Shown here: positions 24,502 to 46,892 of the stretch, one piece after another
How the letters are laid out: every line of letters starts with the position of its first letter
Numbering within the stretch: the first letter of the stretch is position 1
Source of the DNA: Natronogracilivirga saccharolytica
Lineage (GTDB): Bacteria; Bacteroidota; Rhodothermia; Balneolales; Natronogracilivirgulaceae
Length of the DNA stretch: 64,000 nt
Reading direction: 5' to 3'
Assembly (NCBI RefSeq): GCF_017921895.1
Contig: NZ_JAFIDN010000004.1
Location: 1-64,000 of the forward strand
The notes under the pieces: model-generated
Told to the model about the DNA's origin: nothing
Databases searched by the model: none
Seen by the model: the letters and a program-made list of their open reading frames with translations, nothing else
Made by a program: the position numbers and the translations under genes

Positions 24502-27192
24502 TTATTTGACCAGCATAAGTTTGCGTGTCTGCACGAAATCGCCTGCCTGCATGCGGTACAGATAGACACCGCTGGCCAGACGCGTTCCGTCAAAGGTCAC
24601 CTCATGATAACCCGCATCCATGTGATCATCAACCAGTGTGGTAATCCGCCGGCCGGTGACATCATAGACCTCAAGAGTGACCCGGTTGTTTTCCGGAACC
24701 TGGAAGGCAATGCTGGTTGCCGGATTGAACGGATTCGGATAGTTCTGTTCGAGTGCGAACTCGGAAGGAATATCGGCGCCGCCATCAGCACTGGTGATAT
24801 CCGGCTCGTCTCCAAGGCGGATGTTGGCAAAGTAGAGGACAATATCCTCGTCCAGGTCCACAGGGTCGGCAAAATCCGGCATAAAGGCGATGACATTCCA
24901 CTCACCGTCTTTTTCCGAAAAATCAAACACGATGGTTTCCCATTGTTCGGTTTTGGTTTGCGGAACCATGCTTTCTATCTCAAGATCCGGAGTGTCGCCA
25001 TCTTCAACCTTGAAACGGAGCGGACTGATCCGGGGCTTCCATACATCTACATAGATGAACTTTTTGTCACTTAAGTCAAGCGGCACAGGCAGAAACGCAA
25101 AAAAGCCGCCCCAGGGCACACCGTGCTGACTTCTGTCAAAGCGCACAACTTCTTCGCTGTCATTGATCTCATCCGGGTCCGGATTCGGGACACGGCTGAA
25201 TTCACTGTCATCATCCGACCCGCCGCGCATGAGATTGAGATCGATGTATCGTTCTATATGCGAGGCAGGGTCAAATACTTGTCCGGACAAGGGGATCTGC
25301 TCATCACGAATATTCAGGCTGGCCATCATATCACCTCCCTGATCGGGAGCGAATCTGACGGAAACAAAGGCAGAATCGTTACTGGCAAGCTGTGCAGTTT
25401 CGCTGATATTATTCAGATTGAACTGACCGGGATGCTCGCCTGTGAGCCGGATGTCATCCGGGGCAATCTCAAGTATTCCGCCTCCGATGTTGGTCAAGGT
25501 AACGACCACGGAATCAGACTGGTCACCTTCCTCAAGCAAACCGAAGTCAATTTCTTCCGGAGTCACTACCAGCGTCGGTTCGGCACCAACCTCGGCATCA
25601 TCAATAGCCCATCGTATGATATTGTCGGAGGGACCATCGAAAACCCAGGCAAGGCGGAGCTGATCATGGCCGACGCCATGTTCATCGCGGTACAGTCGCA
25701 CCGATATCTCCTCGTCCGGTATGCTTTCAGGATCACTCCACTCCCTGACCAGAAACTCGTCATCCCCCGCAATACTCACCAGTTGCAGATCATACACTCC
25801 GGGATCCCCGAAATTGTCTACCTGGTGCCGGAACTGAACGGTGAGGCTGTCCAGCCCGGTCGTCTGCATGGGCGGTGTGTTCACATAAAAGCGACCTTCC
25901 TGCTGCGGCTCCCACCAGAACACCAGTTCCGGAATTTCTCCGCCGGCATAGTCAGAGTTGAATACGTACCAGTTCTCTGCATTGGTTGTCCATCCTAAAG
26001 GCAGATCTAATTCATCGGTATCACTGAAATCCTCATTCCATGGAAACGAGGTAATGGAAGCATCAATTCCTTCTCCGCTGAGCGGCACCTCCTCGCCGGC
26101 GACCTTCAGCAGTGCTTCTTTATGTCCTATGGTCATCGGCTCAAATGTAACATCCACTGTGACCTGATCGTCCGGCTGCAGTTCGACAGACTCAGGGATG
26201 TTATGCAGCCCGAAACTACCAATATCCCAGCTGACATCGAAAGTGGCCAGTACTCCGAAATGATCGGATGGGTAGACATCATTTTCATCCGGTTCATCAA
26301 GTACAATTTCTGCTGAAACAGGTGTCAGAAAATCACTGCTCTTTTCTTCAAAAAACACATAGTCAATCCGTCGCTGTGAGTGCCCGAGGTGATAGTTCAG
26401 CGTGCTGTGTTCCGGATCCAGGTGATTCTCATGGAAAAGGGGATAAATATCGATAAAACGTTCATACATTACTTCCATCTCTTCCCAATCGGGATTGGCA
26501 TTGAAGTCACCTGTGACAAAAACAAGGTCGGACGTGCTTGTTTCATCGATAAAATCAAGCATGTCTTGTATCTGGGTCTTTCTGGTTTCGGTCGCATCAC
26601 CGGGGTTGTGAAGGTGTGTGTTGTATACGTCCAGTTCGTTACCATCAACCGAAATACGTGTATGCACCGCCTTGCGGTATGCATCGAGCGGTTCAAGGGC
26701 ACGGAAATTGCTTTCTTCTATCGGGTAGCGGGAAACGATGGCATTTCCGAAACGGGTACTCCTCCCTTCATCATCGACAGAGTCAAAATAGTAGTAATAT
26801 CCCAGTGAGTCGGCAATCTGCATGGCCTGATTGTCGAGGTCTTCACGTTGGATCACTTCCTGCAATCCAATGATATCGGGGTCCAATTCCCGAATTTGAT
26901 CGAGTATCAGTTCGAAACGTGCAGGCCAATCCTCATTATCAAACCAGATATTGAGACTGAGAAACGAAAGAGATACTGTTTGACCGGCAGGTGCAGCAAT
27001 GGTAATGTCTTCCGGAGCCAGGGTGGCGGCCTCCGTGCCTTCATTTGTTATAACGAATTCCTGTGTCTCGGAAGTCAGGTTAATTTGTTGTGAATCAAAT
27101 TCATGTGATGGCGGCGATATTGAAAACTGACTCCAGGCTGCCATTGGCATCAGAAGCAATATCACTGCGCCAAGCAGTATATTGTTTTTCAT
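24502..27192 (-). CDS. Secreted T9SS EEP-family phosphodiesterase/nuclease with carbohydrate-binding-like module
   Basis: 896 residues. Signal peptide 1-21. The first half of an Ig-like ASH domain (about 23-68) is interrupted by an endonuclease/exonuclease/phosphatase (EEP) domain (about 74-320: LQEV with E112, THLH 192-195, GDFNANPD 228-235, RRIDYVFF 274-281, SDH 309-311), and the ASH domain resumes at GSFGLHNIPESVELQP (325-340). A jelly-roll-like module (about 383-537), an intact ASH domain (541-640), a VDVWKPRISPLRFKVE module (about 645-797) and a T9SS type A sorting domain (about 817-896) follow. EEP enzymes cut DNA, RNA or phospholipid-type diesters with Mg2+; the substrate here is unknown. 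It is 69 bp after its paralogue at 27262-29991. Confidence 0.85.
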   Translation of the reverse strand: MKNNILLGAVILLLMPMAAWSQFSISPPSHEFDSQQINLTSETQEFVITNEGTEAATLAPEDITIAAPAGQTVSLSFLSLNIWFDNEDWPARFELILDQIRELDPDIIGLQEVIQREDLDNQAMQIADSLGYYYYFDSVDDEGRSTRFGNAIVSRYPIEESNFRALEPLDAYRKAVHTRISVDGNELDVYNTHLHNPGDATETRKTQIQDMLDFIDETSTSDLVFVTGDFNANPDWEEMEVMYERFIDIYPLFHENHLDPEHSTLNYHLGHSQRRIDYVFFEEKSSDFLTPVSAEIVLDEPDENDVYPSDHFGVLATFDVSWDIGSFGLHNIPESVELQPDDQVTVDVTFEPMTIGHKEALLKVAGEEVPLSGEGIDASITSFPWNEDFSDTDELDLPLGWTTNAENWYVFNSDYAGGEIPELVFWWEPQQEGRFYVNTPPMQTTGLDSLTVQFRHQVDNFGDPGVYDLQLVSIAGDDEFLVREWSDPESIPDEEISVRLYRDEHGVGHDQLRLAWVFDGPSDNIIRWAIDDAEVGAEPTLVVTPEEIDFGLLEEGDQSDSVVVTLTNIGGGILEIAPDDIRLTGEHPGQFNLNNISETAQLASNDSAFVSVRFAPDQGGDMMASLNIRDEQIPLSGQVFDPASHIERYIDLNLMRGGSDDDSEFSRVPNPDPDEINDSEEVVRFDRSQHGVPWGGFFAFLPVPLDLSDKKFIYVDVWKPRISPLRFKVEDGDTPDLEIESMVPQTKTEQWETIVFDFSEKDGEWNVIAFMPDFADPVDLDEDIVLYFANIRLGDEPDITSADGGADIPSEFALEQNYPNPFNPATSIAFQVPENNRVTLEVYDVTGRRITTLVDDHMDAGYHEVTFDGTRLASGVYLYRMQAGDFVQTRKLMLVK

Positions 27193-27261
27193 ATTATGAT
27201 CCTTTTTGGGGTGATAAGGCGGCTGAAGTAATCTCAGCCGCCATTGTTGTTAGGGTTCGGG

Positions 27262-29991
27262 TTATTTCACCAGCATAAACTTGCGTGTCTGCACGAAATC
27301 GCCGGCCTGCATGCGGTAGAGGTATACCCCGCTGGCCAGACGCGTTCCATCAAAGGTTACCTCGTGATAGCCCGCATCCAGCTGGTCATCAACCAGCGTG
27401 GTGATCCTGCGGCCCGTCACATCGTAGACCTCCAGTGTGACCCGGCTGTTTTCCGGAACCTGAAAGGCGATGTTTGTGGCCGGATTGAACGGGTTCGGAT
27501 AGTTTTGGCCAAGCGCGAATTCGGATGGAATATCGGCATCGGCAGTGGAACGGGTTTCAATCGGTTCATCCGCCAGCCGGATGTCATCAATGTCCCATGA
27601 TGTCATGTTGTTGGTGGTGCCGTCAAACACCCATGCAAGACGGAAACTTTCGCTGCCAAGGCCATGATCGTCACGTGTGATCACACCACTGAATTCGGTG
27701 GCATTGATGAAGGGGGGATCAACCCACTCTTCGATGACGTGCTCATCGCCGTCGGCAATGGCTATCACACTGAGCGTATACTCGCCCGGATCTTCGAAAT
27801 TACGCACGCGATATTTATAGGAAAGTGTCAGGCTGTCCCGTCCGGCAAGATCAAATTCCGGAGTTTTGAGATAGAACCGGCCTTCTTTTTCCGGTTGCCA
27901 CCAGAATACCATTTCCGGAGGTTCGCCGCCGGCATTGTTCAGATTGAATGTCTCCCAGTTTCGCGTATCACTTTCCCATCCTTCCGGAATACCGCCCTGT
28001 ACCTGCTTCGAAAAATCTTCTTCCCAGGGCAACTCAGTAATCGTAGGATCAAAACTTTCTCCGGTAAGCATTGCAAACGTATTGCCGGCGTATAACATAG
28101 CCTCAAGCTGTCCTTCTTCTTCAGGCACAAAGGCAACCCGGACATCAATGGATTCACCGGATGCAAGCGCAACGGCTTCTGACGGACCCTCAAGCATGAA
28201 ACTGCCGGCATCGTCACCATCAATGCGGATATCCTCCGGTTCCAGTTCAATTACACCGCCGCCTATGTTTTCCATAGTGACTGTAATCGTGTCGGAGGAG
28301 GTATGGATTTGCTGCCGCTCAAAGTCGTAGCCATCGGGTGACATGGCCAGTGCAGGAAAGGCACCCAGGACAATATCATCAATGCTCCACCTCACAATGT
28401 TATCAGAAGCACCGTCAAACACCCAGGCAAGAAACAGCCTGTCGGCTCCGACGCCATGATCCGTGCGGTTGAGCTCAAATGAGAGCTCCTCTGCGGAGAT
28501 ATTATCAGGATCTGCCCATTCGGCTATCAGATGCTCTTCACCATCGGCAATACTGACCAGCTGAAGATCATAAATGCCCGGATCTTCGAAATTGTCCACC
28601 TGATGCCGGAACGTCAGTTCGAGGCTGTCAAGTCCGGTGGTCCGGAACGGCGGGGTGCGCAGATGAAAACGCCCTTCGCTGACAGGTTCCCACCAGAAGA
28701 GCACCTCAGGCGCTTCACCTCCGGCATGGCTTGAATTGAACACATACCAGTTTTCAGCATTGGAGTTCCATCCAAAGGGAACCTCAAACTCATCGGCACC
28801 GGAAAAATCCTCCGACCAGGGCAGATCGGTGACGGTGGCATCAAAAGCTTCGCCGCTGACAGGAATATCGTGCTCCTGAATTGTCAAAATAATCTCTTTG
28901 ACACCTTCGGTTTGAGGGAGGAAAGAAAGCTCGACCGTCGTTTGCTCTTCGGGTTGCAGCTCAACGGACTCCTCAAGATTATGCAGGACGAAGTCGGTGT
29001 CATCCGACAGCAACTCAAAACGTGCAAATACACCGAAATGGTCGGACTCCATGTCCGGATTTTCGTGCTCCTTGTCAAGTATGATTTCTGCAGACAGCGG
29101 GGCAAGCCGGTCAATGCTTTCACTGTTGAAAAAGACGTAATCGATTCGCCGTTGCTGATGCCCCAGCCGCGGGTTGAGTGTCCCGTGCTCGGGATCGAGG
29201 TGGTTTTCGTGGAACAGGGGGTAGACATCGGTGAAGTCATCATACATGAGCCTGGTTTCTTCCCAGTCCGGATTGGCATTGAAGTCACCGGTCACAAAAA
29301 TGTACCCGCCGCTGTTGGTTTCATCTATGAAATCCAGAAAATCTGTTATCTGGGTCTTCCGGATGTCATGATCCAGTCCGACATGGTGCAGGTGGGTGGT
29401 GTATACGTCTACGGTATTGCCTTCGACATCCAGGCGGGCATGCAGGCCCTTGCGGTACTGATTGAGTGGTTCAAGGGCCCGGAAGTTTGTTTCTTCAATG
29501 GGATAGCGCGATACAATCGCATTTCCGAACCGGTGGTCGCGGCCTTCATCATCCACCGAGTCAAAGTAATAGTAGAAGCCCAGCGAATCGGCCATTTGCA
29601 TAGCCTGGTTGTCAAGATCGGCCCGCTGTATCACCTCCTGAAGTCCGATAACATCGACATCCAGCTCCCTGACTTCTTCGAGGATATAGGCAAACCGCGC
29701 CGGCCAGTCTCCGTCGTCGGTTTCAATGTTATAGGAAAGTACAGAGAGTTCGGTACTCAGGGCATCTTTTCCTCTGATGCCGATCTGGCCCGGATGCAGG
29801 GTGAACGGCTCATCATTTTCGTTGGTGACCGTAAACTCCTGAATCTCAGAGCTGATACCAATTTGCTGGGGCGGAAATTCGAACTCATCAGGAGTTACGG
29901 CAAACTGGGCGGCAGCCTGAGAAAAGAAGAGCAAACCTGTAATGAACACAAAGAAGATGGCGGACGGGTGGCAAAGTAAGCGGTGTTTCAT
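27262..29991 (-). CDS. Secreted T9SS EEP-family phosphodiesterase/nuclease, paralogue
   Basis: 909 residues. Signal peptide 1-29. The same split ASH domain (about 30-73 and 332-384) encloses an EEP domain (82-326: LQEV with E119, TTH 198-200, GDFNANPD 235-242, RRIDYVFF 281-288, SDH 316-318). There are two jelly-roll-like modules (about 392-543 and 655-807), each opening with an EDFS/GW..NW motif and ending in RWSIDDI or SWDIDDI, separated by an intact ASH domain (547-648). The T9SS type A domain (about 828-909) is almost identical to that of the next gene. It probably shares a transcript with the paralogue downstream. Surface-attached or released; substrate unknown. Confidence 0.85.
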   Translation of the reverse strand: MKHRLLCHPSAIFFVFITGLLFFSQAAAQFAVTPDEFEFPPQQIGISSEIQEFTVTNENDEPFTLHPGQIGIRGKDALSTELSVLSYNIETDDGDWPARFAYILEEVRELDVDVIGLQEVIQRADLDNQAMQMADSLGFYYYFDSVDDEGRDHRFGNAIVSRYPIEETNFRALEPLNQYRKGLHARLDVEGNTVDVYTTHLHHVGLDHDIRKTQITDFLDFIDETNSGGYIFVTGDFNANPDWEETRLMYDDFTDVYPLFHENHLDPEHGTLNPRLGHQQRRIDYVFFNSESIDRLAPLSAEIILDKEHENPDMESDHFGVFARFELLSDDTDFVLHNLEESVELQPEEQTTVELSFLPQTEGVKEIILTIQEHDIPVSGEAFDATVTDLPWSEDFSGADEFEVPFGWNSNAENWYVFNSSHAGGEAPEVLFWWEPVSEGRFHLRTPPFRTTGLDSLELTFRHQVDNFEDPGIYDLQLVSIADGEEHLIAEWADPDNISAEELSFELNRTDHGVGADRLFLAWVFDGASDNIVRWSIDDIVLGAFPALAMSPDGYDFERQQIHTSSDTITVTMENIGGGVIELEPEDIRIDGDDAGSFMLEGPSEAVALASGESIDVRVAFVPEEEGQLEAMLYAGNTFAMLTGESFDPTITELPWEEDFSKQVQGGIPEGWESDTRNWETFNLNNAGGEPPEMVFWWQPEKEGRFYLKTPEFDLAGRDSLTLSYKYRVRNFEDPGEYTLSVIAIADGDEHVIEEWVDPPFINATEFSGVITRDDHGLGSESFRLAWVFDGTTNNMTSWDIDDIRLADEPIETRSTADADIPSEFALGQNYPNPFNPATNIAFQVPENSRVTLEVYDVTGRRITTLVDDQLDAGYHEVTFDGTRLASGVYLYRMQAGDFVQTRKFMLVK

Positions 29992-30203
29992 GGAAATAAT
30001 GGATTAGAAGATTTCGGTTTTGTATCCGGAAATGAGGACAGGCAGCGGATACAAAAAGGTCAGGGAAGAGGCTTCCTGATTTTTACTCGGAGTGCGATGA
30101 GTGGGTTTGCCGTGTCATCGCAGAAGTCAAGGAACGAGGCACGGATCCACCCCGGTCACACAGGAGCCGGGGCGGTCGTGGTATAGGGCTGATGGTGCCG
30201 GGA

Positions 30204-31079
30204 TTACTTGACCAGGGTCATGGCACGAGTGATGGAACGCTCGGATGTTTCGAGGCGATAGAAATATTTTCCGCTCGGGAGTCCTTCGGCGTTGAAATGG
30301 ACTTCATGTTCGCCCGGGTTGCGGAATTCATTATTGATCAGCGTTGTAATGCGCTGGCCCTGAATATCGTACACGTTCAGTGTTACGTGATCCGAACTGT
30401 TCAGTTCAAACCGGATGTTCGTAGTCGGGTTGAACGGGTTGGGATAGTTCTGCTTGAGCGCCAGGTGAACGGGAAGCTCGTTCTGCTCGGCAGCAGTGGC
30501 AATCGGATCATCCGGTGAATCACTGAGGATGATGTTGTCCAGATAGATAACAATATTTTCATCCAGATCTACGGGATCGGCAAAATCCGGCATGACAGCG
30601 ATAACCGGGTATTCACCTGCGGCATCGGGGTAGTGGAACGTCATGGTCTCCCAACCTTCGGTTACGGTCTGCTCTTCCATGGATTCAAACTCGAAGTCTT
30701 CCGTTTCTTCACTGCCTTCTACCTTGAATACTACCGGACTGATACGGGGTTTCCAGACCTGATAATGGGTGTATTTCATTTCATCCATATCAAGCGGTTC
30801 CCAAACCTCACTCCAGAAACCGCCCCAGGGCACACCGTCATGAGCTCTGGTGTACTGCAGGACCTGGTCGGAGGGATTGACATCGCTCGGATCCGGGTTT
30901 TCTACAACCTCGTAAACATCATCTTCTTCAACCGCTTCACCGCCGGTCATGTCATTCAGCGGAATCGTAACACCATCCGGATCTTCAAAATCCTCTATAA
31001 CAATGTAATTCTGAGCCGCAGCCTGCTGCATTCCGAAAAAAGCCGCAACGAACAGACACAACAGTAATTTGATCTTCAT
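30204..31079 (-). CDS. Small T9SS-secreted protein with carbohydrate-binding-like module
   Basis: 291 residues from the ATG at 31079, with GGAG at ideal spacing; an open frame upstream to 31235 is not part of the gene. Signal peptide ends AAAQ (about 22). A single beta-rich module follows, with DGVPWGGFW, YQVWKPRISPVVFKVEG and AVMPDFADPVDLDENIVIYL, closely matching residues 645-797 of the EEP protein at 24502. The rest is a T9SS type A sorting domain (NPFNPTTNIRFEL to AMTLVK). The absence of any enzyme domain and the gene's position suggest a surface glycan-binding protein. A 212-bp gap separates it from the EEP genes; no terminator is obvious there. Confidence 0.75.
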   Translation of the reverse strand: MKIKLLLCLFVAAFFGMQQAAAQNYIVIEDFEDPDGVTIPLNDMTGGEAVEEDDVYEVVENPDPSDVNPSDQVLQYTRAHDGVPWGGFWSEVWEPLDMDEMKYTHYQVWKPRISPVVFKVEGSEETEDFEFESMEEQTVTEGWETMTFHYPDAAGEYPVIAVMPDFADPVDLDENIVIYLDNIILSDSPDDPIATAAEQNELPVHLALKQNYPNPFNPTTNIRFELNSSDHVTLNVYDIQGQRITTLINNEFRNPGEHEVHFNAEGLPSGKYFYRLETSERSITRAMTLVK

Positions 31080-31457
31080 AGTCACTCCATTTTTTTCTTT
31101 TCTGATATAATTGCATGATTGTCTGGGATCTCCAGTGGTGATGTGCAAATAGCATGCAAATAAAATTTGCAAAATTACCTGCAAACACTTCTTTAGTGTA
31201 GTGAAAAGAAGACATTCATGCAAGCAAAAAAACATAGTTTATATCCACCTGATAAGCTTGTACATGATAAACCATTTTATACGAACAGAAAATTATCGCA
31301 AAAGACACAGGAACTGATTGGCGCAGATAATCCAATGCAGGCCATAATATATTTATGCAACAATGCTGCTTGAAAGTAAATTTGCATTTATGTATTCTGA
31401 GTAATATTACCTGTTACTATTATTTTAATATTTATAACAATCCGAAATCCTGCTTTA
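31080..31457. promoter_or_regulatory. Divergent control region with many TGCA half-sites
   Basis: This 378-bp region separates the T9SS genes from the endoglucanase. By my count TGCA occurs nine times, mostly inside ATGCAA or TTGCAT (for example GCATGCAAATA near 31153, ATTTATGCAAC at 31351-31361, ATTTGCATTTATG near 31380). The same pattern occurs before susC and before lacI, and ATATTTATGCAAC at 31349-31361 recurs exactly at 46937-46949. A LacI-type operator is a reasonable guess. Confidence 0.45.
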
Positions 31458-32813
31458 ATGCGAAATTTTACTTTTTTCTCCGCAGCAGCACTGGCCGCTG
31501 CTTTTTTTCTGACACCTGGATGCAACCATGCCGATACGGATTCCAGCGTGAATACAGACCGGCTTTCCGACGAGGCCTTGCTCGATACCGTGCAATACTA
31601 TACGTTCCAGTATTTCTGGGACGGGGCAGAACCGCAGTCCGGAATGGCAAGGGAGCGTTACTGGCTGGACGAAGAGTATCCGCACGATAATGGTAATACC
31701 GTCACCAGCGGCGGATCCGGCTTCGGGCTCAAGGCCATCATTACCGGTATTGAACGCGGATTCATCACAAGAGAAGAAGGCGTCGACCGGTTTGAACGGA
31801 TTGTAGGCTTTCTTGAGGAAGCCGAACGATTCAACGGATTGTGGGCACACTGGATGGACGGCACTACCGGTGAGGCACTTGCTTTCAGTCCCGAAGACGA
31901 CGGAGCTGATATTGTAGAAACTTCCTTTTTGATTCAGGGGCTGCTGACCGTACGGCAGTATCTGCGCGACGGAACCGAACGGGAACAGCAGATCGCCGAA
32001 CGCATCGATACCATGTGGCGTGAGGTGAACTGGAACTGGCATACACGGGAAGGGGAGGAAAACATACTCTACTGGCACTGGTCGCCAAACCATGGCTGGG
32101 CAATGGATCATCCGATTGCCGGATATGATGAATGTCTTGTTACCTATATTCTGGCCGCTTCTTCCCCTACATATCCGATCGATCCGGAAGTATATCATGA
32201 AGGATGGGCCCGTGGCGGTGATATCGTCGCCGAAGGCCTGGAAGCCTACGGATATTCGCTTCCACTGCAGCATAATCGCGGCGAACAGTATGGCGGACCC
32301 CTTTTCTGGGCACATTACTCCTACCTTGGTCTTGACCCCAGAAATCTGGAAGACCGTTATGCAAACTACTGGGACAACAACCGCTATCACAGCCTGATCC
32401 AGTATGAGTATGCGAAAGACAACCCGTTTGACTTCAAAGGATACGGAGAAGATCTGTGGGGGCTGACATCCAGTTACAACCCGGACGGATATGTCGCCCA
32501 CACCCCTCATTATGACGACCACGGCGTCATCACACCCACCGCGGCTCTGTCATCCATTCCGTATACGCCGGAAGAGTCCATGAAGGTGATGCGCAATCTT
32601 TATGAAAACTTTTATGATGAAACCTTCGGTCCGTACGGATTCTATGATGCCCTCAGTCTTGAGCACGACTGGTTTCCCCAGCGTTATCTGGCAATCGACC
32701 AGGGACCGATTGTCGTGATGATCGAAAACCACAGAAGCGGCCTTCTTTGGGATCTGTTCATGAGCAGTGAGGAGGTGCAGGAGGGACTTGAGAGGCTTGA
32801 ATTCAGCTATTGA
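31458..32813 (+). CDS. GH144-like glucanase lipoprotein (PF10091), probable beta-1,2-glucan hydrolase
   Basis: 451 residues. Lipobox LTPGC (C22). The (alpha/alpha)6-type catalytic domain is recognised from TFQYFWDGAEPQSGMARER, GSGFGLKAIITGIERG, FSPEDDGADIVETSFLIQGLL, WSPNHGWAMDHPIAGYDE, YGEDLWGLTSS and YLAIDQGPIVVMIEN. The acidic series D147-xxx-D151-xx-E154 has the spacing I recall for residues tested as catalytic in the GH144 endo-beta-1,2-glucanase of Chitinophaga. The family cuts beta-1,2-glucan to sophoro-oligosaccharides. Lipid anchoring suggests action at the cell surface or in the periplasm, feeding the SusCD importer. It is divergent from the T9SS genes and convergent with the GH3 operon. 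Confidence 0.85.
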   Translation: MRNFTFFSAAALAAAFFLTPGCNHADTDSSVNTDRLSDEALLDTVQYYTFQYFWDGAEPQSGMARERYWLDEEYPHDNGNTVTSGGSGFGLKAIITGIERGFITREEGVDRFERIVGFLEEAERFNGLWAHWMDGTTGEALAFSPEDDGADIVETSFLIQGLLTVRQYLRDGTEREQQIAERIDTMWREVNWNWHTREGEENILYWHWSPNHGWAMDHPIAGYDECLVTYILAASSPTYPIDPEVYHEGWARGGDIVAEGLEAYGYSLPLQHNRGEQYGGPLFWAHYSYLGLDPRNLEDRYANYWDNNRYHSLIQYEYAKDNPFDFKGYGEDLWGLTSSYNPDGYVAHTPHYDDHGVITPTAALSSIPYTPEESMKVMRNLYENFYDETFGPYGFYDALSLEHDWFPQRYLAIDQGPIVVMIENHRSGLLWDLFMSSEEVQEGLERLEFSY

Positions 32814-33091: not shown

Positions 33092-33131
33092 CTTTATCTG
33101 TTCTATAATTTGCTGTCCGTAATCCCGGGCC

Positions 33132-33180: not shown

Positions 33181-33211
33181 TATCGGATCAGGAAGCTGTT
33201 AATTAACGGTT

Positions 33212-35613: not shown

Positions 35614-37365
35614 TCAGTTTTCCAATTTGTTTCGGCGTTCCAGGCTGAATGAAGCACCGCGGACAGCCTCCCCGTCAATCCATTTGACCGGATGTCCGGT
35701 CAGGTTGTTCCAACCTTCATCCAGAGAGATCTTCCAGAAGTGATGATCCGAGCCCTTGTCGGCCACAAACCACATGTCATCGGGCTCGCCCATGTGCGTG
35801 CCCCATCCGCCTTCGCCGATGTAGACCACACCGTCTTCATTAATTTCGCCGTCCTTCACCGGGTGCGTCCGCTTCAGCCGGTGCCCGTGCCCTTCATGGA
35901 TCAGATCTACCTCGTACTCTTCGAACAGCGGCACCCAGTGCTCATGCATCAGCCGCCGCCCGTAACGGGGCTTTTCCCAGTAATGAGGCGATGTGGCAAA
36001 GGCATTGATGTGATACTGTCCCAGCAGCCACGGACGGTCCTGGTATCTGTCAAGTGTCTCCCGGAGCCACTGTTTCTGCTTTCCGTCATGGGAATCACGG
36101 ACACGATGCGGCCCGTGCCCCGCCTCGTAACTGCCGCTGTCGACAAACCAGTCCAGTTCCTCGTTGAAGGCCGAAGTGTGGCCCGAATCAAGCGTAAACA
36201 GAACCAGCCCCTCGCCGAACTCGACGACATAATACCGCTCAGGGTCGGGTAGGTGGAACCGGTTGGCATAAAAGGCAGCATCGGTCTGAAAATCACCCGC
36301 AACCCAGCCTCTGACATCGTGATTTCCCAATGCCGGAAGCACCGGCACGCGCCGGGCCTCATCGGTTACCATCAGCTCATGCCATTCGTCAAACCAGGCA
36401 TCCCATTCGGATTCGGCCATGCCATTCATAACCAGGTCGCCCGCGATGGCGACAAATTCGGGATCCAGGCCGGCCGCCAGCTCTGTCATCTCTTTACGCT
36501 CCCGGGTTTCACTTTGCGTGTCGGCACCCATGATAAACGTTACGGAATCTTTGTGAGCAGGTGCTGTCCGGAAGTGGAACGGCTCCGCAAGCGCATATTT
36601 CGAAGTTTCATCCGCGTCGTTCTTCCGTCGTATCAGGACACGGTAGTTTTGCCCGGGCTCAAGGTCACGGATCGTCACTTTGTGCAGCCAGGCGCTGGTT
36701 TCAGGAAAGGTATAGGTTTCGGCTTCCGCTGAGCGGATGTGTTCGGCGTATCCGTCAGTCTGATCTGAACGAAACGGCTCTGTCTGCTCAAATGCGGATA
36801 TTTCGGACGAGTAGAGCAGGTGATTGTCGCCGACACCGTCGAAAACCCGGTTCCATTCGTCACGGTCGGGCATCAGTTCTGCTTCCAGGCCGATTTCTTC
36901 AGAATAGGTGTACCAGTTTTCAACCAGAAACCGGTATGCAAATCCGGAGCCGCGTCCGCTGTGGTTCATCACACCTATGCAAAGATCAATGAAGGCATCC
37001 TCGGGACTTTCGTATCCGGCATCGCGCCATCCGTTGTCCGCCAGCAACTTCCTTTTTTCAGCAAAATCGATTTCCGTCCCCGCATTTTCCATGGCATTTT
37101 CGATGCGTTTCATGCCGACCGTACGGGCATACGGCTCGTCGGCCCGCCATGAAATGGTCATGGTCGTGCGGGTGTCATCTTTCCATGTGAGGACAATCTG
37201 ACGCGGTTTTTCCGTGCCGAATGACGTTATATGGCCGGACGCATCACTTTCGGACAAACCGGTTCCGGCGGATGTGCCGGTGCCGTCAGCTCCGGCTTTG
37301 GCGGCACTGGCTGTAAACGCGGCCGGAGCAAGTATCAGTAACAGAGTGAGAATAAGTGTAATCAT
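35614..37365 (-). CDS. Secreted purple-acid-phosphatase-like metallophosphoesterase
   Basis: 583 residues. Signal peptide about 1-22. An FN3-like domain (from IVLTWKDDTRTTMTISW) carries a long insertion (about 90-200) before resuming at VTIRDLEPGQNYRV. The calcineurin-type catalytic domain has FIMGADTQ, IAGDLVMNG, ALGNHDVRG, GQYHINAF and HEGHGHRLKR, so all metal-binding positions look intact. It would cut phosphoester bonds outside the cytoplasm. Being the fifth gene of a susC-led operon is unusual: polysaccharide loci rarely carry a phosphatase. It may remove phosphate groups from a substituted glucan. It lies 12 bp after the lipoprotein gene. Confidence 0.85.
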   Translation of the reverse strand: MITLILTLLLILAPAAFTASAAKAGADGTGTSAGTGLSESDASGHITSFGTEKPRQIVLTWKDDTRTTMTISWRADEPYARTVGMKRIENAMENAGTEIDFAEKRKLLADNGWRDAGYESPEDAFIDLCIGVMNHSGRGSGFAYRFLVENWYTYSEEIGLEAELMPDRDEWNRVFDGVGDNHLLYSSEISAFEQTEPFRSDQTDGYAEHIRSAEAETYTFPETSAWLHKVTIRDLEPGQNYRVLIRRKNDADETSKYALAEPFHFRTAPAHKDSVTFIMGADTQSETRERKEMTELAAGLDPEFVAIAGDLVMNGMAESEWDAWFDEWHELMVTDEARRVPVLPALGNHDVRGWVAGDFQTDAAFYANRFHLPDPERYYVVEFGEGLVLFTLDSGHTSAFNEELDWFVDSGSYEAGHGPHRVRDSHDGKQKQWLRETLDRYQDRPWLLGQYHINAFATSPHYWEKPRYGRRLMHEHWVPLFEEYEVDLIHEGHGHRLKRTHPVKDGEINEDGVVYIGEGGWGTHMGEPDDMWFVADKGSDHHFWKISLDEGWNNLTGHPVKWIDGEAVRGASFSLERRNKLEN

Positions 37366-38079: not shown

Positions 38080-39507
38080 TCAGTCATCCAGCCAACCGCC
38101 GGTAAATCCGGCCCGTTCAAGACCCCGCCGGATATGCTCGTTTTCCCGCATGATTTCCCAGATCAACCCGCTGCGGAAGTTCTCAATCTGGATCAGGATA
38201 GGCCCCTGGTCGATGCCGAGATATTGACTGTTGACCCATCCGTCGGGCAGCTGACTGGGCCTGAAAGTCAAATTGAACGAATCCCGGAAACCCTGGTCGC
38301 GGTAGATCCGCTCTCCGTGCTCTTTATACATGTGATGCAGGGAAGTAATGGTTTCTTCCGGAGCAAAAGGTACCGATCCGCCGATGGCAGTAGGGGCAAT
38401 GGTACCGTCGTCAACAACATACAGCGCGCTGGCACCGCGCGCCCGGTAACCAAAGAGCTCCCTTTGATCACCGTCGACCGATATGGTAAACTCCCCCGGA
38501 CCATCGCAGGCAGTGAGCCCCCATATATGCTCATCATAACCGATCCATTCATTGGGATTGTCAATGGCGTACTCACGCTGCGACAATGTGGCCCTTCGGG
38601 AGTTTTCAAAATAATCGATGCCGCGGTGCCTCATGTAACTGTCCTGAATGTCGCGAAAATCAACGAACATGTGCGAGTACTGGTGCAGAAACAGGGGACT
38701 GGCGTTGACATGCTCATAACCGTAATAATCGATCCAGCTGTAGGTCTCGGTATATGCATCCCAGGCTTCGGGCTCAACCGAACTGTCCGGCTTGCCCAGT
38801 GCCAGGATATACAGAATCATCGCCTCATCATATCCCGTCCAGTCATGGGGGATCATCCCTTCTTCCGGAAACCAGCCGTGGCCGATCAGCGGCGGACTGC
38901 TGCGTGACTCCATCCATTCCCAGTCAACCCTGGTGTAGACCGAATCAACCAGCTCGCGGATCTCATTCTCGACCGGAGTGTCCTGGTCGAAATAGGATTG
39001 CGAGGTAAGCATGCCGGCCAGCAGAAGCGCGGTGTCGATGGTCGACAATTCGTTCTGCCCGGCCCGCAAACCGTCATCCATATTCAGGAAGTGATAAAAG
39101 AAACCCCGGTGCCCTGCAGTGCCGCCTGGTTCTTCTCCCTGCGGTGCCTCCCAGAAGAAGCGGACAGTGTTCAGGGTCCGTTCGGCAGCTGCCTGGCGCG
39201 ACACATAGCCGCGTTCCACGCCGACAATGTAGGTGGTCAGGCCGAAACCGACTGCGGCAATACTGGCGGCCGAATTGCCGGGAGCACGGTCCGGAATCAT
39301 TCCGTTGTCCGGATTGGCGCGCTCCCAGAAATAGGCGAAGGTATCCTCCTGGAGCATGTCGAGGAAGGCTTCCTGCTCTTCATCAGGCTGCCAGGGGGGA
39401 TCTTCGTCATTGGGAACCTCCATCAGCGGACGTCCGTTGTCGTCGCACCCGGCAAAAGCAACCAGCAATGCCAGTCCCAGTACAGGCAACAATGTTTTTA
39501 TATTCAT
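38080..39507 (-). CDS. PF10091-family glycoside hydrolase lipoprotein, divergent from GH144
   Basis: About 475 residues from the ATG at 39507. Lipobox AFAGC (C21). The fold markers are shared with the protein at 31458: DTFAYFWERANPDNGMIPDR, AVGFGLTTYIVGVERGY, GHGWFPEEGMIPHDWTGYDE, HIWGLTACDG, YLGIDQGPILIQIENFRSG. The active-site strand differs: QNELSTIDTALLLAGML replaces DDGADIVETSFLIQGLL, so D147, D151 and E154 of the GH144-like protein become Q151, S155 and D158. It belongs to the wider glucoamylase-like family and probably has another cleavage mode or linkage preference. Third gene of the operon. Confidence 0.82.
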   Translation of the reverse strand: MNIKTLLPVLGLALLVAFAGCDDNGRPLMEVPNDEDPPWQPDEEQEAFLDMLQEDTFAYFWERANPDNGMIPDRAPGNSAASIAAVGFGLTTYIVGVERGYVSRQAAAERTLNTVRFFWEAPQGEEPGGTAGHRGFFYHFLNMDDGLRAGQNELSTIDTALLLAGMLTSQSYFDQDTPVENEIRELVDSVYTRVDWEWMESRSSPPLIGHGWFPEEGMIPHDWTGYDEAMILYILALGKPDSSVEPEAWDAYTETYSWIDYYGYEHVNASPLFLHQYSHMFVDFRDIQDSYMRHRGIDYFENSRRATLSQREYAIDNPNEWIGYDEHIWGLTACDGPGEFTISVDGDQRELFGYRARGASALYVVDDGTIAPTAIGGSVPFAPEETITSLHHMYKEHGERIYRDQGFRDSFNLTFRPSQLPDGWVNSQYLGIDQGPILIQIENFRSGLIWEIMRENEHIRRGLERAGFTGGWLDD

Positions 39508-39547
39508 ATTCAGAAATAAGTCAGCGAACCGCTGTGAATTAATCCTG

Positions 39548-41395
39548 TTACCAGTTGGGATTTTGGTCAAGCGCTCCTGCGCTGAGATCTATCTCGTTCT
39601 GCGGGATGGGGAAGAGTTCATGCTTGCCCGCCTCGAAGGGTTTGTCAAGCGCCTGCATCACATCGGCGGCGCGGCCCTGGCGTATGAGATCAAACCAGCG
39701 CTTTTGTTCCATTGACAGCTCAACCCGGCGCTCATGCCAGATGGCCTGAAGCAGATCATCGCCGGAAGCGGTGACATCCGGTAGCAGTTCTGCGATTGCT
39801 ACATCCACTGTCAGTTCTTCAGGGTCTTCACCGTGACGGATGCGGTGGATTTCCACCGGCACCGTTTCACCGGCACTTTGCTGCTCAACGGCATCCAGAA
39901 ATGACTGCCGGTCGGTGATGGAAATACCATTTACCGATACGATGAAATCAACCAGATCGGCACGAACACGTCCGCGGTCCAGTCCGTGATCAAATGGTTC
40001 AATGCCTGCCTGATCGGCCGGACTATCGGCATGTACCAGCCGGGCAAATACACGGGTATCGAGATCATCAAGATCAAGGTTGTTTTCCATGCTGGGCGAA
40101 GCATTTTCAGGCAGGATACCAATGGTCAGCGACTGTCCGACCCGTGCACGCTCGCGGACCTGATTCAGGAAATTGCGGGCATCACCATCGCTGCCGTTCT
40201 GATAGGCTGCTTCAGCGGCAATGAGCAGTAGGTCCGAATAACGGAAACGGCGGATGTTGACCGGGCTGTTGCCCCGTCCGCCGGGATGATCCGAAGGGGC
40301 GAAGGCTTTTTTGTTATACCGTTCATCTTCCATACTTCCGTTTTCGATGACTGTTTGACCGGATCCGTCGGGAAGTTCCTCCCACGGGAAGAGAATGGTG
40401 GCCTGGTGGCGCAGATCTCCGTGCTCAAAGGCAGCATCAAGGTTACGTGAGGGCCGGTTGAATCCCCAGCCCAGGTTCGGTGTGCCGCGAACGCCCTGAA
40501 CCTGACCGAACTGACTTCCACCGGCATCTTCCTCGGTTGCGGTGGCCTGGACTTCAAAAATGGATTCGGATGAGTTTTCACCGTCATCCGTAAAAATGGT
40601 GAAGTAGTCCGAGAGCAGCTCATATTCCCCGGAATTGATGACATCACGGGCATAGGATTCCGCATTGGGATAGTCTTCAAGATAAAGATAGACCCGGGCA
40701 AGCATGGATTCCGCCGCTCCGCGTGTGGCGCGGCCGAGGTCATCGGAGGCATATTCCGATTTCAGCGGGAGGTTTTCTGCCGCAAATTCCAGGTCATCGA
40801 TGATCTGCTCGTAGATCTGCTCCGATGGCACGCGCTCCTGTTCATAATCTTCCGGAGTCAGAGGCTCGGTGATCAGCGGAACATCCCCGTAGCCGCGGAC
40901 CAGATTGAAGTAGAAATAGGCCCGAAGGAACCGGTTTTCACCCAACAGCCGGTCGCGGAGTTCAGGATTCATGTCCACATCCGGCAGATTCCGGATGTTG
41001 ACGTTGGCGCGGTATATGCCCTCGTAATTGCCGTTCCACCAGCCATTGAATGACTGATGCCCGGCATCATAGGTGAAATTTTCAAGTTCCAGCAGATGCG
41101 CGGCATCTGTCGGTGTGCTTCCCTTCGTGGCATCATCGGAGATCATATCCGTAAGACCCAGATAGTCGAACACGTGGATATTCCAGTCACGCAGCTTGTT
41201 GTAAGTGGCGTTGGTGCCCTGAATGGCTTCCTCTTCATTCAGGAAGAAGTTCTCGCTGGTCTGTTCTCCGAGAGGCTTGCGGTCGATGAAGCTGTCACAA
41301 GCGGCAACAGTCAGTACCAGTAATGCCGCAGCCGCCATCAGTGGCAGACGCATCAGCCGGTGCGGTTGTATGGTAGCATTCAATAGAGTTTTCAT
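39548..41395 (-). CDS. SusD/RagB-family lipoprotein with an inserted PDZ-like domain
   Basis: 615 residues. Lipobox TVAAC (C33). SusD landmarks: the FIDRKP start of the mature chain, helical TPR-like repeats (about 130-260), RYSDLLLIAAEAAYQNG (385-401), FLNQVRERARVG (409-420), LLQAIWHERRVELSMEQKRWFDLIRQG (548-574) and NEIDLSAGALDQNPNW at the end. Between residues about 422 and 536 (DNA 39788-40135) lies extra sequence with PDZ features: TRVFARLVHADSPADQAGI, DLVDFIVSVNGISITDRQSF and VPVEIHRI. SusD lids the SusC transporter and binds oligosaccharides; the PDZ insert is not typical. It is 50 bp after susC. Confidence 0.9.
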   Translation of the reverse strand: MKTLLNATIQPHRLMRLPLMAAAALLVLTVAACDSFIDRKPLGEQTSENFFLNEEEAIQGTNATYNKLRDWNIHVFDYLGLTDMISDDATKGSTPTDAAHLLELENFTYDAGHQSFNGWWNGNYEGIYRANVNIRNLPDVDMNPELRDRLLGENRFLRAYFYFNLVRGYGDVPLITEPLTPEDYEQERVPSEQIYEQIIDDLEFAAENLPLKSEYASDDLGRATRGAAESMLARVYLYLEDYPNAESYARDVINSGEYELLSDYFTIFTDDGENSSESIFEVQATATEEDAGGSQFGQVQGVRGTPNLGWGFNRPSRNLDAAFEHGDLRHQATILFPWEELPDGSGQTVIENGSMEDERYNKKAFAPSDHPGGRGNSPVNIRRFRYSDLLLIAAEAAYQNGSDGDARNFLNQVRERARVGQSLTIGILPENASPSMENNLDLDDLDTRVFARLVHADSPADQAGIEPFDHGLDRGRVRADLVDFIVSVNGISITDRQSFLDAVEQQSAGETVPVEIHRIRHGEDPEELTVDVAIAELLPDVTASGDDLLQAIWHERRVELSMEQKRWFDLIRQGRAADVMQALDKPFEAGKHELFPIPQNEIDLSAGALDQNPNW

Positions 41396-41445
41396 AGTAA
41401 GTGACGTTTAGGTCGAATAAAATGGGTTTCGGCGATATGTTCTGA

Positions 41446-44400
41446 TCAGAATGTGGCGTTTACACCTACGTTGAACGTGCGTGCAAACGGATAGAAAGCA
41501 TCATCGATGCCGCTGGCAATTACGCTCTGGCTGGCCACCTCAGGTGTATACCCGTCGTAGCCGGTAAGCGTAAGCAGGTTTGAGCCGCTTACATAGACGC
41601 GCAGCGTGTTCAGGCCGATCTGCTCGGTGATGTCCGTGCCCAGTGAGTATCCCAGCGTAAGATTCTGAAGTTTCAGGAAGTCACCATCTTCTATAAAGAA
41701 GTCGGAAACCTGGTAGTTGTGCCCGCCGTCGGTAATCCGCGGGTAGGTGTCGCTGGTATTCTCGCCGGTCCACCGGTCAAGCGCGGACTCTTCAAAATTC
41801 GGAGTACCAAAGCGCGCCTGTTTCTTTGCATTGTATATCTGATTTCCGGTCTGGCCGGTAAAGGAGGCACTCAGGTCAAATCCGCGCCATCCCAGCTCCA
41901 CGTTGAAGGAGAATATGAAATCAGGATAGGGCGAACCGAGGAAGACACGGTCATCGGTAGTGATCTCACCGTCACCCGTGACATCGAGATACCGGATATC
42001 ACCGGGCTCCTCGCCGCCGCGCAGGGGACCGGCTTCAATTTCCTCTTCGTTCTGGAAAATGCCGTCGGTTTTGTATCCGAAGAAGGAACCGATCGGTTCA
42101 CCGACAACGGTTTTTGTGGCAAGCATGCCGCCGACTCCAACACCGCCGCCGAAGATTTCTTCGTTGCCCCGTCCGAGGGAAAGTACTTCGTTTTTAACCG
42201 TGGTGGCATTAGCACCGATGCTGTAGAAGAACCCGGCACGGCTGTCCTGCCAGTTGATGTCCAGCTCAAAGCCGCTGTTGCTTACTTTTGCAGCATTTTC
42301 AAACGGGTCTCCAACCACTCCGATGTATCCGGGAATCGGCACCTGCACCAGAATATCATCGGTGACACGATCGTAGTAGTCCGCATCTATGGTCAGCCGT
42401 TCGCCAATAAAGGAGGATTCAATTCCGATGTTCCACTGCGTTGTCTCTTCCCATCGCAGAAGCGGATTGGCGAGACTGGTCTGCAGAGCTCCGAACCGGA
42501 TCCGCTCGTCCGGACCAAATACCGCATTCAGGTTGCCGGTAATGGTCGCGGTAGCAGGGTACAAACCGATCTGGTCGTTTCCGGTCCGACCCCAGCTTCC
42601 GCGGAAGCGGAACTGATCGAGCCAGGCAGGTTCCGGAAAGAAAGGCTCATCACTGATGACCCAGCCCAGCGCAAAGGAAGGGAACCATCCGTAACGGTTG
42701 TCCCGGCCAAAGCGCGAAGAACCATCGACCCGGTTGGTCACGGTTGCCGTATACCGGTCGAGATAAGTGTAGTTTATCCGGCCGATAAAGGATGCCATTG
42801 CCCAGTCTCCGGCCGAATTGAAGTTGGTCATACCTTCACTGTCATCGGCTGCATTCAGATACCAGAGGGATTCATCGTCGCCAAGCACGTTGATGCGCCC
42901 GCCGCCCAGGCTTTCGCTCTTGTACTCCTCAATGGTAACACCGCCGAGCACATCCAGCCTGTGGTCACCAATGGTCTGCTGATACTGCACCGTGTTTTCC
43001 CACAGGATGTTGTACATGAAGTTGTTGTTTACATTTATAGATGTCTCTTCGCTCTGCTGAATGGCGGATACAAAGAAGATCGGAGAGTAGCTGCGCCCCT
43101 CGGTCCGGTCGACATCTATCCCGAGGTTGGAACGGAAACGGAAGTGATCCAGAAATGAATAATGCATATAGGCGTTCCCGGACAATCGAAAGCGGCTGTT
43201 GGCATTGTTACTGTTGTAATCAAGGTCGGCCACCGGATTGCCTACAGAAGCACGTTCGTCTGTCGGCGAGTAATCTCCGTCTTCGGTAAATACCGGAATG
43301 GTGGGATCGCCGCGATAGGCACTGCCCACTACTCCCGGCGCATCCTGATAATCCTCGTAGACAAGGGCGATGTTGTGCCCGAAATCAAGGTTGTCGGTCA
43401 GGTAATAGTCATTGTTCAGGCGGAAAGAGAACCTGTCGAGATAGTTTTCATAAATGATCCCTTCCTGACCGGAATAGGAGGCGCTGATATTATATGCGGT
43501 GCGCTCGGTTCCGCCGGAAACACGCAGGTGCAGATTCTGAATGGGAGCAACACGGAAGATCTCATTCTGCCAGTCCGTTCCCTCTCCAAACTCGGACGGA
43601 TCATCAAAAGGCAGCGAGCGTCCCTCGTTTTCGGCTGCTTCATTTGCCAGAATGGCATATTCGCGGGCGTTGGTTACGGGCACGGTCCGGGCAACTTCCT
43701 GCCAACCGTAATAGTAATTAAGATCAAATTCGGTGGGGCGGTCTACCTGGCCGCTTTTCGTGGTGATCAGAATAACACCGTTGGCTCCCCGGGCTCCATA
43801 GATGGCCGTGGCCGATGCATCCTTGAGTACGTCCACCGATTCGATGTCGTTGGGGTTAAGGAAGTTGATGTTATCCATAATCATTCCGTCAACTACGAAC
43901 AGGGGAGATGCCTCGTTCAGCGTGCCGATACCACGGATCCGGATAACGGAACTGGCCCCCGGAGCACCGGAAGAGGCTGTCACCTGCAGTCCTGATGCCA
44001 CACCCTGCAGCGCCTGATCCACCGACTGGGTGGGTATCCGGCTGAGGCGTTCTCCGTCGACGCGGGATATGGAGCCGGTAACGTCACGGCGGCGCTGTAC
44101 CCCGTATCCGACAACCACCATCTCTTCGCCGACTATTTCGACCGGAGTCAATGCTACATTTATTTCCTCACGGCCCTCTATAGGTACTTCCTTGGATTCA
44201 AAACCAAGATAGGAAAACTGAAGTGTGGCATCATCCTCAGGAGCCCTGAGCTCATACCGGCCTTCATCGTTGGTGGTGGTTCCGATTTGTGTTCCTGCCA
44301 CAATAATATTGACACCCTGAAGGGGTTCTTCGGTTTCTGCATCGGTCACCAACCCCCGTACATCGTGCTGGGCCATTGCCAGCGAAGTACTGAATATCAT

Positions 44401-44457
44401 AATAAGGGTGAGGCTGAGACTGCAGAACACGTTACGTGATAGTAGTCGATGGTTCAT
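41446..44457 (-). CDS. SusC/RagA-family TonB-dependent outer-membrane transporter
   Basis: 1003 residues, usual length. Signal peptide to about residue 29, then a carboxypeptidase-regulatory-like domain (VRGLVTDAETEEPLQGVNI). The SusC signature follows (MVVVGYGVQRRRDVTGSIS), as does the plug with IRGIGTLNEASPLFVVDGM and ESVDVLKDASATAIYGARG. The rest is a 22-stranded barrel with a final strand ending NVGVNATF. It imports oligosaccharides using TonB energy, with SusD as lid. It is the first gene of a six-gene operon; the co-encoded hydrolases point to glucan, probably beta-1,2-linked, as cargo. Confidence 0.95.
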   Translation of the reverse strand: MNHRLLSRNVFCSLSLTLIMIFSTSLAMAQHDVRGLVTDAETEEPLQGVNIIVAGTQIGTTTNDEGRYELRAPEDDATLQFSYLGFESKEVPIEGREEINVALTPVEIVGEEMVVVGYGVQRRRDVTGSISRVDGERLSRIPTQSVDQALQGVASGLQVTASSGAPGASSVIRIRGIGTLNEASPLFVVDGMIMDNINFLNPNDIESVDVLKDASATAIYGARGANGVILITTKSGQVDRPTEFDLNYYYGWQEVARTVPVTNAREYAILANEAAENEGRSLPFDDPSEFGEGTDWQNEIFRVAPIQNLHLRVSGGTERTAYNISASYSGQEGIIYENYLDRFSFRLNNDYYLTDNLDFGHNIALVYEDYQDAPGVVGSAYRGDPTIPVFTEDGDYSPTDERASVGNPVADLDYNSNNANSRFRLSGNAYMHYSFLDHFRFRSNLGIDVDRTEGRSYSPIFFVSAIQQSEETSINVNNNFMYNILWENTVQYQQTIGDHRLDVLGGVTIEEYKSESLGGGRINVLGDDESLWYLNAADDSEGMTNFNSAGDWAMASFIGRINYTYLDRYTATVTNRVDGSSRFGRDNRYGWFPSFALGWVISDEPFFPEPAWLDQFRFRGSWGRTGNDQIGLYPATATITGNLNAVFGPDERIRFGALQTSLANPLLRWEETTQWNIGIESSFIGERLTIDADYYDRVTDDILVQVPIPGYIGVVGDPFENAAKVSNSGFELDINWQDSRAGFFYSIGANATTVKNEVLSLGRGNEEIFGGGVGVGGMLATKTVVGEPIGSFFGYKTDGIFQNEEEIEAGPLRGGEEPGDIRYLDVTGDGEITTDDRVFLGSPYPDFIFSFNVELGWRGFDLSASFTGQTGNQIYNAKKQARFGTPNFEESALDRWTGENTSDTYPRITDGGHNYQVSDFFIEDGDFLKLQNLTLGYSLGTDITEQIGLNTLRVYVSGSNLLTLTGYDGYTPEVASQSVIASGIDDAFYPFARTFNVGVNATF

Positions 44458-44942
44458 AGTAGCTCTGGTTATGGTTCAGGTGAAGTTGCTGCATTTGCCG
44501 GCACATGATGGAACCAGCTGATTATATTAGTGCAAAAAACAATGCAAATAATAAATTATATATCAGACGAAAGCAGATATTTCTTCTGGTGTAATACCTC
44601 CCGGTGTTCCTTGTAATAATTGGTATATCTAAAGGCAGGCATCATATAATTCATTTATGCAGGAATAAAAAAGCGGTTTTGCTTATAAAGTCATCTCACA
44701 ATGTTAAATGCAGAGAAGATCTGTTGCCGGATTGCTCATGCAAAAGGTAACTTATCTGAACCGCCATGCAATGTCAAGAAGAAAATTCATGCAATAGTGT
44801 GTATTTTTTCATTAATTGCATAATAACTGCAGCTGTTCTGCAGCTGAAAAAACAACCGTCAGAAGGGCGACTCAGCTGTTCTTGAATAATTTGGATCTGA
44901 ACAGCCATCCGTCCGGTTAAACAAAAACCTGAAAAAGGAACC
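44458..44942. promoter_or_regulatory. Divergent control region of the susC operon, TGCA-rich
   Basis: This 485-bp region lies between susC and the EEP gene. I count eleven TGCA, many as ATGCAA (for example 44531, 44734, 44766, 44789) or TTGCATAA (44816). A CTGCAGCTG is repeated at 44827 and 44839. The density is far above the roughly two expected by chance and matches the regions at 31080 and 46893. It probably holds operators for the LacI-type regulator, but I cannot define one site exactly. Confidence 0.45.
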
Positions 44943-45884: not shown

Positions 45885-46892
45885 TGCGCGCTCAATCAAC
45901 TGTACCGGGACCAGGCTCAGTGTGCCGTGCTTGTAGCCCTGTTTGCGGATCTTGTTTTTGAGTGCCTTGATGGAAGAGATGCCCAGTTCGATGAAATCTG
46001 TATCGATGGAGGATAATTCCGGAGAACGGTGCAACACCGACGGGAGGTTGTCATAACCAAGAATGGCTATATCTCCCGGAATGTGCACACCTGACGACCT
46101 GGCCGACTCGAGAAAGCCAATTGCCATGGAATCATTGGTGGCAAAAATCGCATCAGCAGGAAAAACACGCTTTTCAAAATGTTGGTCAAACTCCCGGAAC
46201 GCTTTTACACCGGACTCAAAATCGTAATCCCCGCTGATACGCCAGCTGAGTTCCAGCCCGGGCTGCTGGTGTATATAGTCCAGAAAGCCATTAGAACGAA
46301 ACCTGCTCTCCGGCCTGTTTACAGGACCGTCAATGATGCCAAGACGCGTAAAGCCCTTCTCATGCAGATGGGAAGCGGCAAGGTGTCCGCCACTGTAACT
46401 GTCAAATGTTACCGTAGCAACATTCGGATTGTCAATCAGGGCATTGGAAACAATCGGATAACCTTTGGGAAGAACGTTGAGAATCTCTTCATAGTGATCA
46501 CGCTCCAGTGCAGGGAAGAAAAGAATAAAGCCGTCATAATTGTTTTCCCGGTGGACCTGCTGAATGAAACGGACACATTCTTCACGCTGGTCTTTTACAC
46601 TCAGCAATGATATCCGGACATCTTCCTTATAAGACGCATCCCGATATCCGCAAAAAAGTGATGCATAAAATTCACCAATACGAAAGTCTGAGAGCAATGC
46701 AAAATGAAGCTTCTTTTTCTTTTTGCGCTGAGGCTTTTTTTTGACTGCCGGACGATAACCCAGATCTGAAGCAGCCCGCTGTACATCTTCTCTTGTTTTC
46801 TTGCTGATACTTGGTGAATCAGCCAGTGATCGCGAAATGGTCGAAATCGAATAACCGGTCCGTTCCGCAATCTGCTTTAATGTTGGTTTCAT
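45819..46892 (-). CDS. LacI-family transcriptional regulator
   Basis: 357 residues. The N-terminal HTH is textbook (TLKQIAERTGYSISTISRSL) and is followed by a hinge with a very basic KKKPQRKKKKKLHF stretch. The periplasmic-binding-protein-like sensor domain includes DSYSGGHLAASHL, LGIIDGP, PADAIFATNDSMAIGFL and IAILGYDNLP. It is the only specific regulator inside the glucan locus and likely controls the susC operon and its divergent partners by sensing an oligosaccharide. The 66-bp overlap with the EEP gene at the 3' ends allows antisense interference. Confidence 0.93.
   Translation of the reverse strand: MKPTLKQIAERTGYSISTISRSLADSPSISKKTREDVQRAASDLGYRPAVKKKPQRKKKKKLHFALLSDFRIGEFYASLFCGYRDASYKEDVRISLLSVKDQREECVRFIQQVHRENNYDGFILFFPALERDHYEEILNVLPKGYPIVSNALIDNPNVATVTFDSYSGGHLAASHLHEKGFTRLGIIDGPVNRPESRFRSNGFLDYIHQQPGLELSWRISGDYDFESGVKAFREFDQHFEKRVFPADAIFATNDSMAIGFLESARSSGVHIPGDIAILGYDNLPSVLHRSPELSSIDTDFIELGISSIKALKNKIRKQGYKHGTLSLVPVQLIERASTGFIRKSDLHKHREMVRGES

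Follow-up and report, generated by a model that had tools for sequence, protein, structure and literature searches.

Phosphoesterase genes linked to a putative beta-1,2-glucan utilisation locus in Natronogracilivirga saccharolytica

Beta-1,2-glucan utilisation loci of the Bacteroidota (the CpSGL and BT3567 type) combine GH144 and GH3 enzymes with SusCD genes, and some GH144 loci of marine bacteria are reported to include a sulfatase as well (PMC6499787). EEP-family enzymes have been described from glycan loci before, and phosphoesterases also occur in known SusCD loci, e.g., the phosphate utilisation systems (PUS) of Flavobacterium, where SusCD is accompanied by phosphomono- and diesterases (PMC8115612). 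Here we describe a locus of Natronogracilivirga saccharolytica (24502-46892 in a stretch of 64,000 nucleotides from contig NZ_JAFIDN010000004.1, hereafter the window) that shares with the GH144 loci of Bacteroidota the GH144, GH3 and SusCD content and the conserved catalytic residues, but differs from them in carrying EEP and metallophosphoesterase genes, EEP proteins sorted by the type IX secretion system (T9SS) with a domain of the locus, and a PDZ-bearing SusD. Like the marine loci, it would pair beta-1,2-glucan degradation with enzymes that remove decorations, although these are phosphoesterases here and no sulfatase is present among the identified locus genes. In the papers searched we found no published GH144 locus with phosphoesterases, no conserved combination of the two, and no enzyme stripping phospho-groups from beta-1,2-glucans; a literature search on the catabolism of osmoregulated periplasmic glucans (OPGs) or on EEPs in SusCD loci gave nothing relevant. 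OPGs carry phosphoglycerol and phosphoethanolamine, and according to a 2025 review the positions of their substituents have not been identified (PMC11842490). If the reading proposed below is true, the phosphoesterases would be tools for locating these substituents and the locus would shed light on the recycling of periplasmic glucans between bacteria; the finding in any case supplies, from several genera, concrete sets of genes that can be put to the test.

Glucan core and phosphoesterases of the locus

An earlier note, made from the letters of this DNA alone, had listed a GH144-like enzyme, a second PF10091 hydrolase, a GH3 beta-glucosidase, SusC, SusD and a LacI regulator; all open reading frames (ORFs) that it named are present where it placed them, and these identities were confirmed by Pfam, NCBIfam and PDB homology. 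The first PF10091 protein (31458-32813, plus strand; ca. 270 bits to the family) is a CpSGL-like endo-beta-1,2-glucanase by its full-length match of 577 bits to 5gzh/5gzk, and in alignment it keeps equivalents of CpSGL D135, D139, E142, E211, F268 and Y330, its E154 and E225 occupying the E142 and E211 positions (E142, E211, F268 and Y330 being the catalytic and clan residues, PMC12102758). The second (38080-39570, minus strand; also ca. 270 bits) resembles XcSGL (XCC2207), a characterised beta-1,2-glucanase (PMC12102758), with 504 bits to 8xul, and a comparison of the acidic positions alone shows an acidic residue at the position of CpSGL E142 and a Glu in its GYDEAM motif. Based on this homology to CpSGL and XcSGL over the (alpha/alpha)6 domain, both PF10091 hydrolases are assigned to GH144 as beta-1,2-glucanase homologues. 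The GH3 beta-glucosidase (33212-35560, minus strand) is BglX/BT3567-like, scoring 775 bits to NCBIfam BglX and 690 bits to 5xxl (BT3567), which is outranked by 3u48 (a metagenomic GH3, 719 bits) and 9urf (699 bits). Uptake and control are represented by a SusC-like TonB-dependent transporter (41446-44457, minus strand; Pfam Plug, CarbopepD_reg_2 and beta-barrel), a SusD-like lipoprotein (39548-41395, minus strand; PF07980 and PF14322) with an inserted PDZ domain (PF13180; residues ca. 441-532, within the region of residues ca. 426-545) that is kept in relatives, and a LacI-family regulator (P0011, 45819-46892, minus strand; NCBIfam LacI-family matches) whose orthologues adjoin SusC in relatives. 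The stretch thus has the SusC/SusD pair, CAZymes and regulator of a polysaccharide utilisation locus, and its two GH144 enzymes with their catalytic residues support, at the level of sequence, a beta-1,2-glucan as its substrate. An inserted PDZ domain is also seen in GH144-linked SusDs of several genera (loci L015-L024, L079-L084, L091, L031 and L037) and goes undetected in the SusDs of 490-526 aa of other GH144 loci.

The three EEP-family genes reported by the earlier note at 24502, 27262 and 44943 all carry PF03372. EEP a (24502-27192, minus strand) consists of a TDP2-like EEP domain and a C-terminal domain (24817-25245) that we call the glucan-locus domain, and EEP b (27262-29991, minus strand; PF03372 plus Por_Secre_tail) is its tandem paralogue; their EEP domains are 68% identical and both proteins end in T9SS C-terminal sorting domains. 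The third, EEP 44943 (P0010, 44943-45884, plus strand), is a predicted EEP phosphatase with a signal-peptide-like N-terminus and a relative of 4c1r (phmmer E 6.7e-57, 41% identity), deposited as a mannosyl-6-phosphatase. 4c1r is BT3783, the phosphatase of a Bacteroides yeast-mannan (i.e., glycan-utilisation) locus; the two proteins share the EEP fold, whereas EEP 44943 is linked to a beta-1,2-glucan locus. The active-site residues of the family (Asn, Glu, His, Asp-x-Asn and Asp-His) are conserved in the EEPs of the locus (alignments A1 and A2). The model of the EEP a domain (mean pLDDT 82) has TDP2 phosphodiesterases as its nearest fold (Foldseek E 4e-18, ca. 22% identity), from which EEP a differs in being, by prediction, secreted, T9SS-sorted and fused to the glucan-locus domain. 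More specific labels did not hold: the analogy with sphingomyelinase C drawn in the earlier note fails at 21.4 bits against a curated cut-off of 248 (TIGR03395), exodeoxyribonuclease III reaches 26.7 bits for EEP a and less for the other EEPs against 99 (TIGR00633), and MnuA scores far under its curated cut-off.

The product of the gene at 35614 (P0006, 35614-37365, minus strand; PF00149 and PF16656) had been read as purple-acid-phosphatase-like. A metallophosphoesterase with a purple-acid-phosphatase-like N domain is indeed encoded within the locus, and its metal ligands D282, D310, N348, H452, H493 and H495 are invariant, as in calcineurin-like enzymes; however, the iron-binding Tyr of GDxxY is replaced by Met (GDLVM, invariant in five homologues), and the purple label was dropped. 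The lipoprotein encoded beside it (P0013, 37378-38061, minus strand) is modelled, with moderate confidence, as a beta-sandwich resembling carbohydrate-binding modules (CBMs; pLDDT 74, best PDB matches CBM27, CBM22 and CBM11).

Linkage of the phosphoesterases to GH144 loci

The same 196 relatives were searched with each locus protein. In the genome itself (3.75 Mb) PF03372 genes number four, three of them within this 21-kb stretch, and by our own estimate the chance of this is of the order of 1e-4 when EEP a and b are counted as a tandem duplicate. Among EEP 44943 homologues of at least 60% identity, 8/10 lie within 6 kb of GH144, often in one operon, against 2/39 of the more distant ones found in genomes with GH144 (Fisher p = 4e-6, kinship ignored), and a ninth of the ten (L087) adjoins LacI, GH43 and a GH3 scoring 992 bits to the GH3 of 33212. 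The closest named relatives of EEP 44943 come from metagenome genomes of Balneolales and Balneolaceae. Overlapping EEP and GH144 ORFs occur in both L079 and L082, and L045, which belongs to another family, has an EEP a-type ORF that overlaps its GH144 ORF. Phosphatases of the 35614 type and lipoproteins of the 37378 type are adjacent in all five loci where they were seen; in four of these the contig also holds GH144, and the remaining one (L088) has a SusCD pair.

A further tie is the glucan-locus domain. The C-terminal domain of EEP a (145 residues) shares 52% identity with the T9SS-sorted protein of 30204 (P0003, 30204-31235, minus strand; domain at 30525-31007), and across the 196 genomes the clade above 50% consists solely of EEP a orthologues and of 30204-type proteins from GH144 loci (next match 41%), two of its members lying on contig fragments with no GH144 in view (G019:C59 and G006:C169). 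All four EEP a orthologues of the family carry this domain.

The promoter regions of the locus also share a motif. The window contains three copies of ATTTATGCA against 0.67 expected, all on the plus strand in promoter regions of this locus, i.e., that of 31458 and 30204 (31351-31359), that between susC and EEP 44943 (44653-44661) and that upstream of LacI (46939-46947). In relatives the regions upstream of locus genes have ca. 20 times the density of TTATGCAA seen elsewhere, TTATGCAA ranks there with the most widespread 8-mers, and the full palindrome TTATGCAATTTTTGCATAA is present in L082; as upstream regions are AT-rich, part of this enrichment may stem from base composition. A LacI palindrome with a central CG was sought and none was convincing; the TTATGCAA motif turned up instead, and the shared TTATGCAA/ATGCAAAA motif is in our view the probable operator to which the LacI regulator would bind.

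One could argue that the EEP and phosphatase genes have nothing to do with the glucan locus and came to lie beside it by chance, as many GH144 loci are without phosphoesterases. Given the enrichment near GH144, the operon overlaps, the shared domain and the shared motif, we regard such an accidental neighbourhood as highly improbable, and the comparisons among relatives support a conserved linkage of phosphoesterases to GH144 loci. The proposal of the earlier note that these enzymes belong with the glucan locus is in this respect upheld by the GH144 linkage, the ORF overlaps and the domain shared in relatives.

Several observations weigh against a strict association. The near relatives L017-L019 keep the SusCD-GH144-GH3 core without phosphoesterases, a PF03372 survey covering 61 genomes with GH144 showed that most lack an EEP near that gene, and relatives of EEP 44943 outside Balneolales mostly have no GH144 beside them, whether they lie in SusCD operons or in other places (L166 and L184 being exceptions). 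EEP a orthologues in 3/4 family members adjoin neither GH144 nor P0003 on the contig, and a locus protein is visible beside the remaining one (G019, beside P0003), so EEP a was not retained as strictly GH144-adjacent. The ATTTATGCA/TTATGCAA-type motif is absent from the gap directly upstream of EEP a and b, which contains a terminator-like hairpin, and these two genes may form a separate transcript. The association counts, moreover, ignore phylogeny, several loci coming from one genus. The survey of genomes that the earlier note had proposed is divided in its outcome, the close clade of EEP 44943 agreeing with the expected co-occurrence and the bare core of near relatives partly matching what that note said would refute it. 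Because the same core occurs in relatives without them and the wider EEP 44943 family is mostly found without GH144, the phosphoesterases are an accessory module of GH144 loci. A recurrent SusC-SusD-EEP order without GH144 (L115 and similar) is seen in many Spirosoma, Dyadobacter, Algoriphagus and Pontibacter relatives.

The same observations bear on the chief rival explanation, phosphorus scavenging, in which the phosphoesterases would mineralise organic phosphate (nucleic acids, sugar phosphates and phospholipid headgroups) in the manner of the Flavobacterium PUS, with the glucan locus as a mere neighbour. In Flavobacterium johnsoniae phosphate depletion induces SusCD clusters that include phosphomono- and diesterases (PMC8115612), genes of the EEP 44943 type are common in SusCD operons without GH144, and the nearest fold of EEP a, TDP2, is that of a nucleic-acid phosphodiesterase. 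However, PusCD clusters are described as distinct from SusCD clusters with carbohydrate enzymes (PMC8115612), whereas this locus has two GH144 enzymes, a GH3 and a LacI regulator; in addition, the GH144 linkage is clade-specific and comes with overlapping ORFs, the C-terminal domain of EEP a is common to the glucan-locus protein 30204, and EEP 44943 has its promoter region and motif in common with susC. We thus hold phosphorus scavenging to be unlikely.

FGE-sulfatase-domain proteins adjoin EEP and GH144 genes in two distant lineages (L079:8416-9278 and L045:11629-13709), with no sulfatase among the identified neighbours.

A possible route through a phosphate-substituted glucan

The co-location in relatives suggests that the glucan consumed carries phosphate. 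The explanation we favour with moderate confidence, as the likeliest of those considered, is a LacI-controlled beta-1,2-glucan locus joined by an accessory module of phosphoesterases that would open phosphate-substituted beta-1,2-glucan to digestion. At the cell surface EEP a and b, exported by the T9SS and TDP2-like in fold, would cut phosphodiester substituents of the glucan, GH144 lipoproteins located there would then cleave the backbone, and SusCD would take in the resulting oligosaccharides; EEP 44943, of sugar-6-phosphatase type, and the metallophosphoesterase of 35614 would remove phosphomonoesters, either within the periplasm or on the cell surface, and the GH3 would free glucose last. 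A diesterase-then-monoesterase order is plausible given the mannosyl-6-phosphatase-like EEP 44943 and the TDP2-like fold of EEP a. The gene content, the active-site residues, the linkage, the common domain and the promoter motif are observed; we infer the reactions of all phosphoesterases and the identity of the phospho-groups, and read the cell location of these enzymes from signal or sorting sequences. Of the groups named by the earlier note, the sequences single out neither phosphoglycerol nor phosphoethanolamine nor phosphocholine as the one removed. As a more specific and tentative form of this proposal, the locus could be a pathway dedicated to feeding on anionic glucans, osmoregulated or cyclic, that other bacteria make, where surface EEP diesterases and the sugar-6-phosphatase-type EEP strip phosphoglycerol-type groups and GH144 and GH3 use the backbone, yielding both carbon and phosphorus.

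The target might instead be a different heteropolysaccharide that bears phosphate and contains some beta-1,2-linked glucose, for instance an exopolysaccharide of marine or soda-lake origin, in place of the OPGs or cyclic glucans of bacteria. Two Winogradskyella loci (L166 and L184) have the gene row GH144-esterase-GH3-esterase-GH43/F5_8C-EEP-sugar transporter, i.e., they add esterases and a GH43 with an F5/8C domain to GH144, GH3 and EEP, and one Balneolales copy also has GH43-F5/8C; sulfatase occurs in marine GH144 loci (PMC6499787), and one GH35 linked to GH144 turned out to have beta-1,2-galactosidase activity (PMC11739564). The glycosidases of the window are, on the other hand, GH144 and GH3 alone, with no side-chain glycosidase found there, and these are enough for a pure beta-1,2-glucan, which makes such a heteropolysaccharide a rather doubtful substrate for this locus. 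The gene row of L166 and L184 comes from cultured species.

The phosphatase at 18458 and its neighbours

A second phosphatase, placed at 18503 by the earlier note and counted there as part of the system, corresponds to ORF 18458-19765 (plus strand), which reads as purple-acid-phosphatase-like and has the Tyr of GDxxY. We removed it from the system, as it lies outside the locus beside genes for a Wzi-like capsule protein and an ion channel. The weaker relatives of the 35614 protein (up to 38% identity), taken to be of the 18458 kind, had no GH144 linkage by coordinates. The neighbouring protein of 19772-21112 has SBP_bac_3 and ligand-gated ion channel domains, i.e., those of a prokaryotic glutamate-receptor-like channel.

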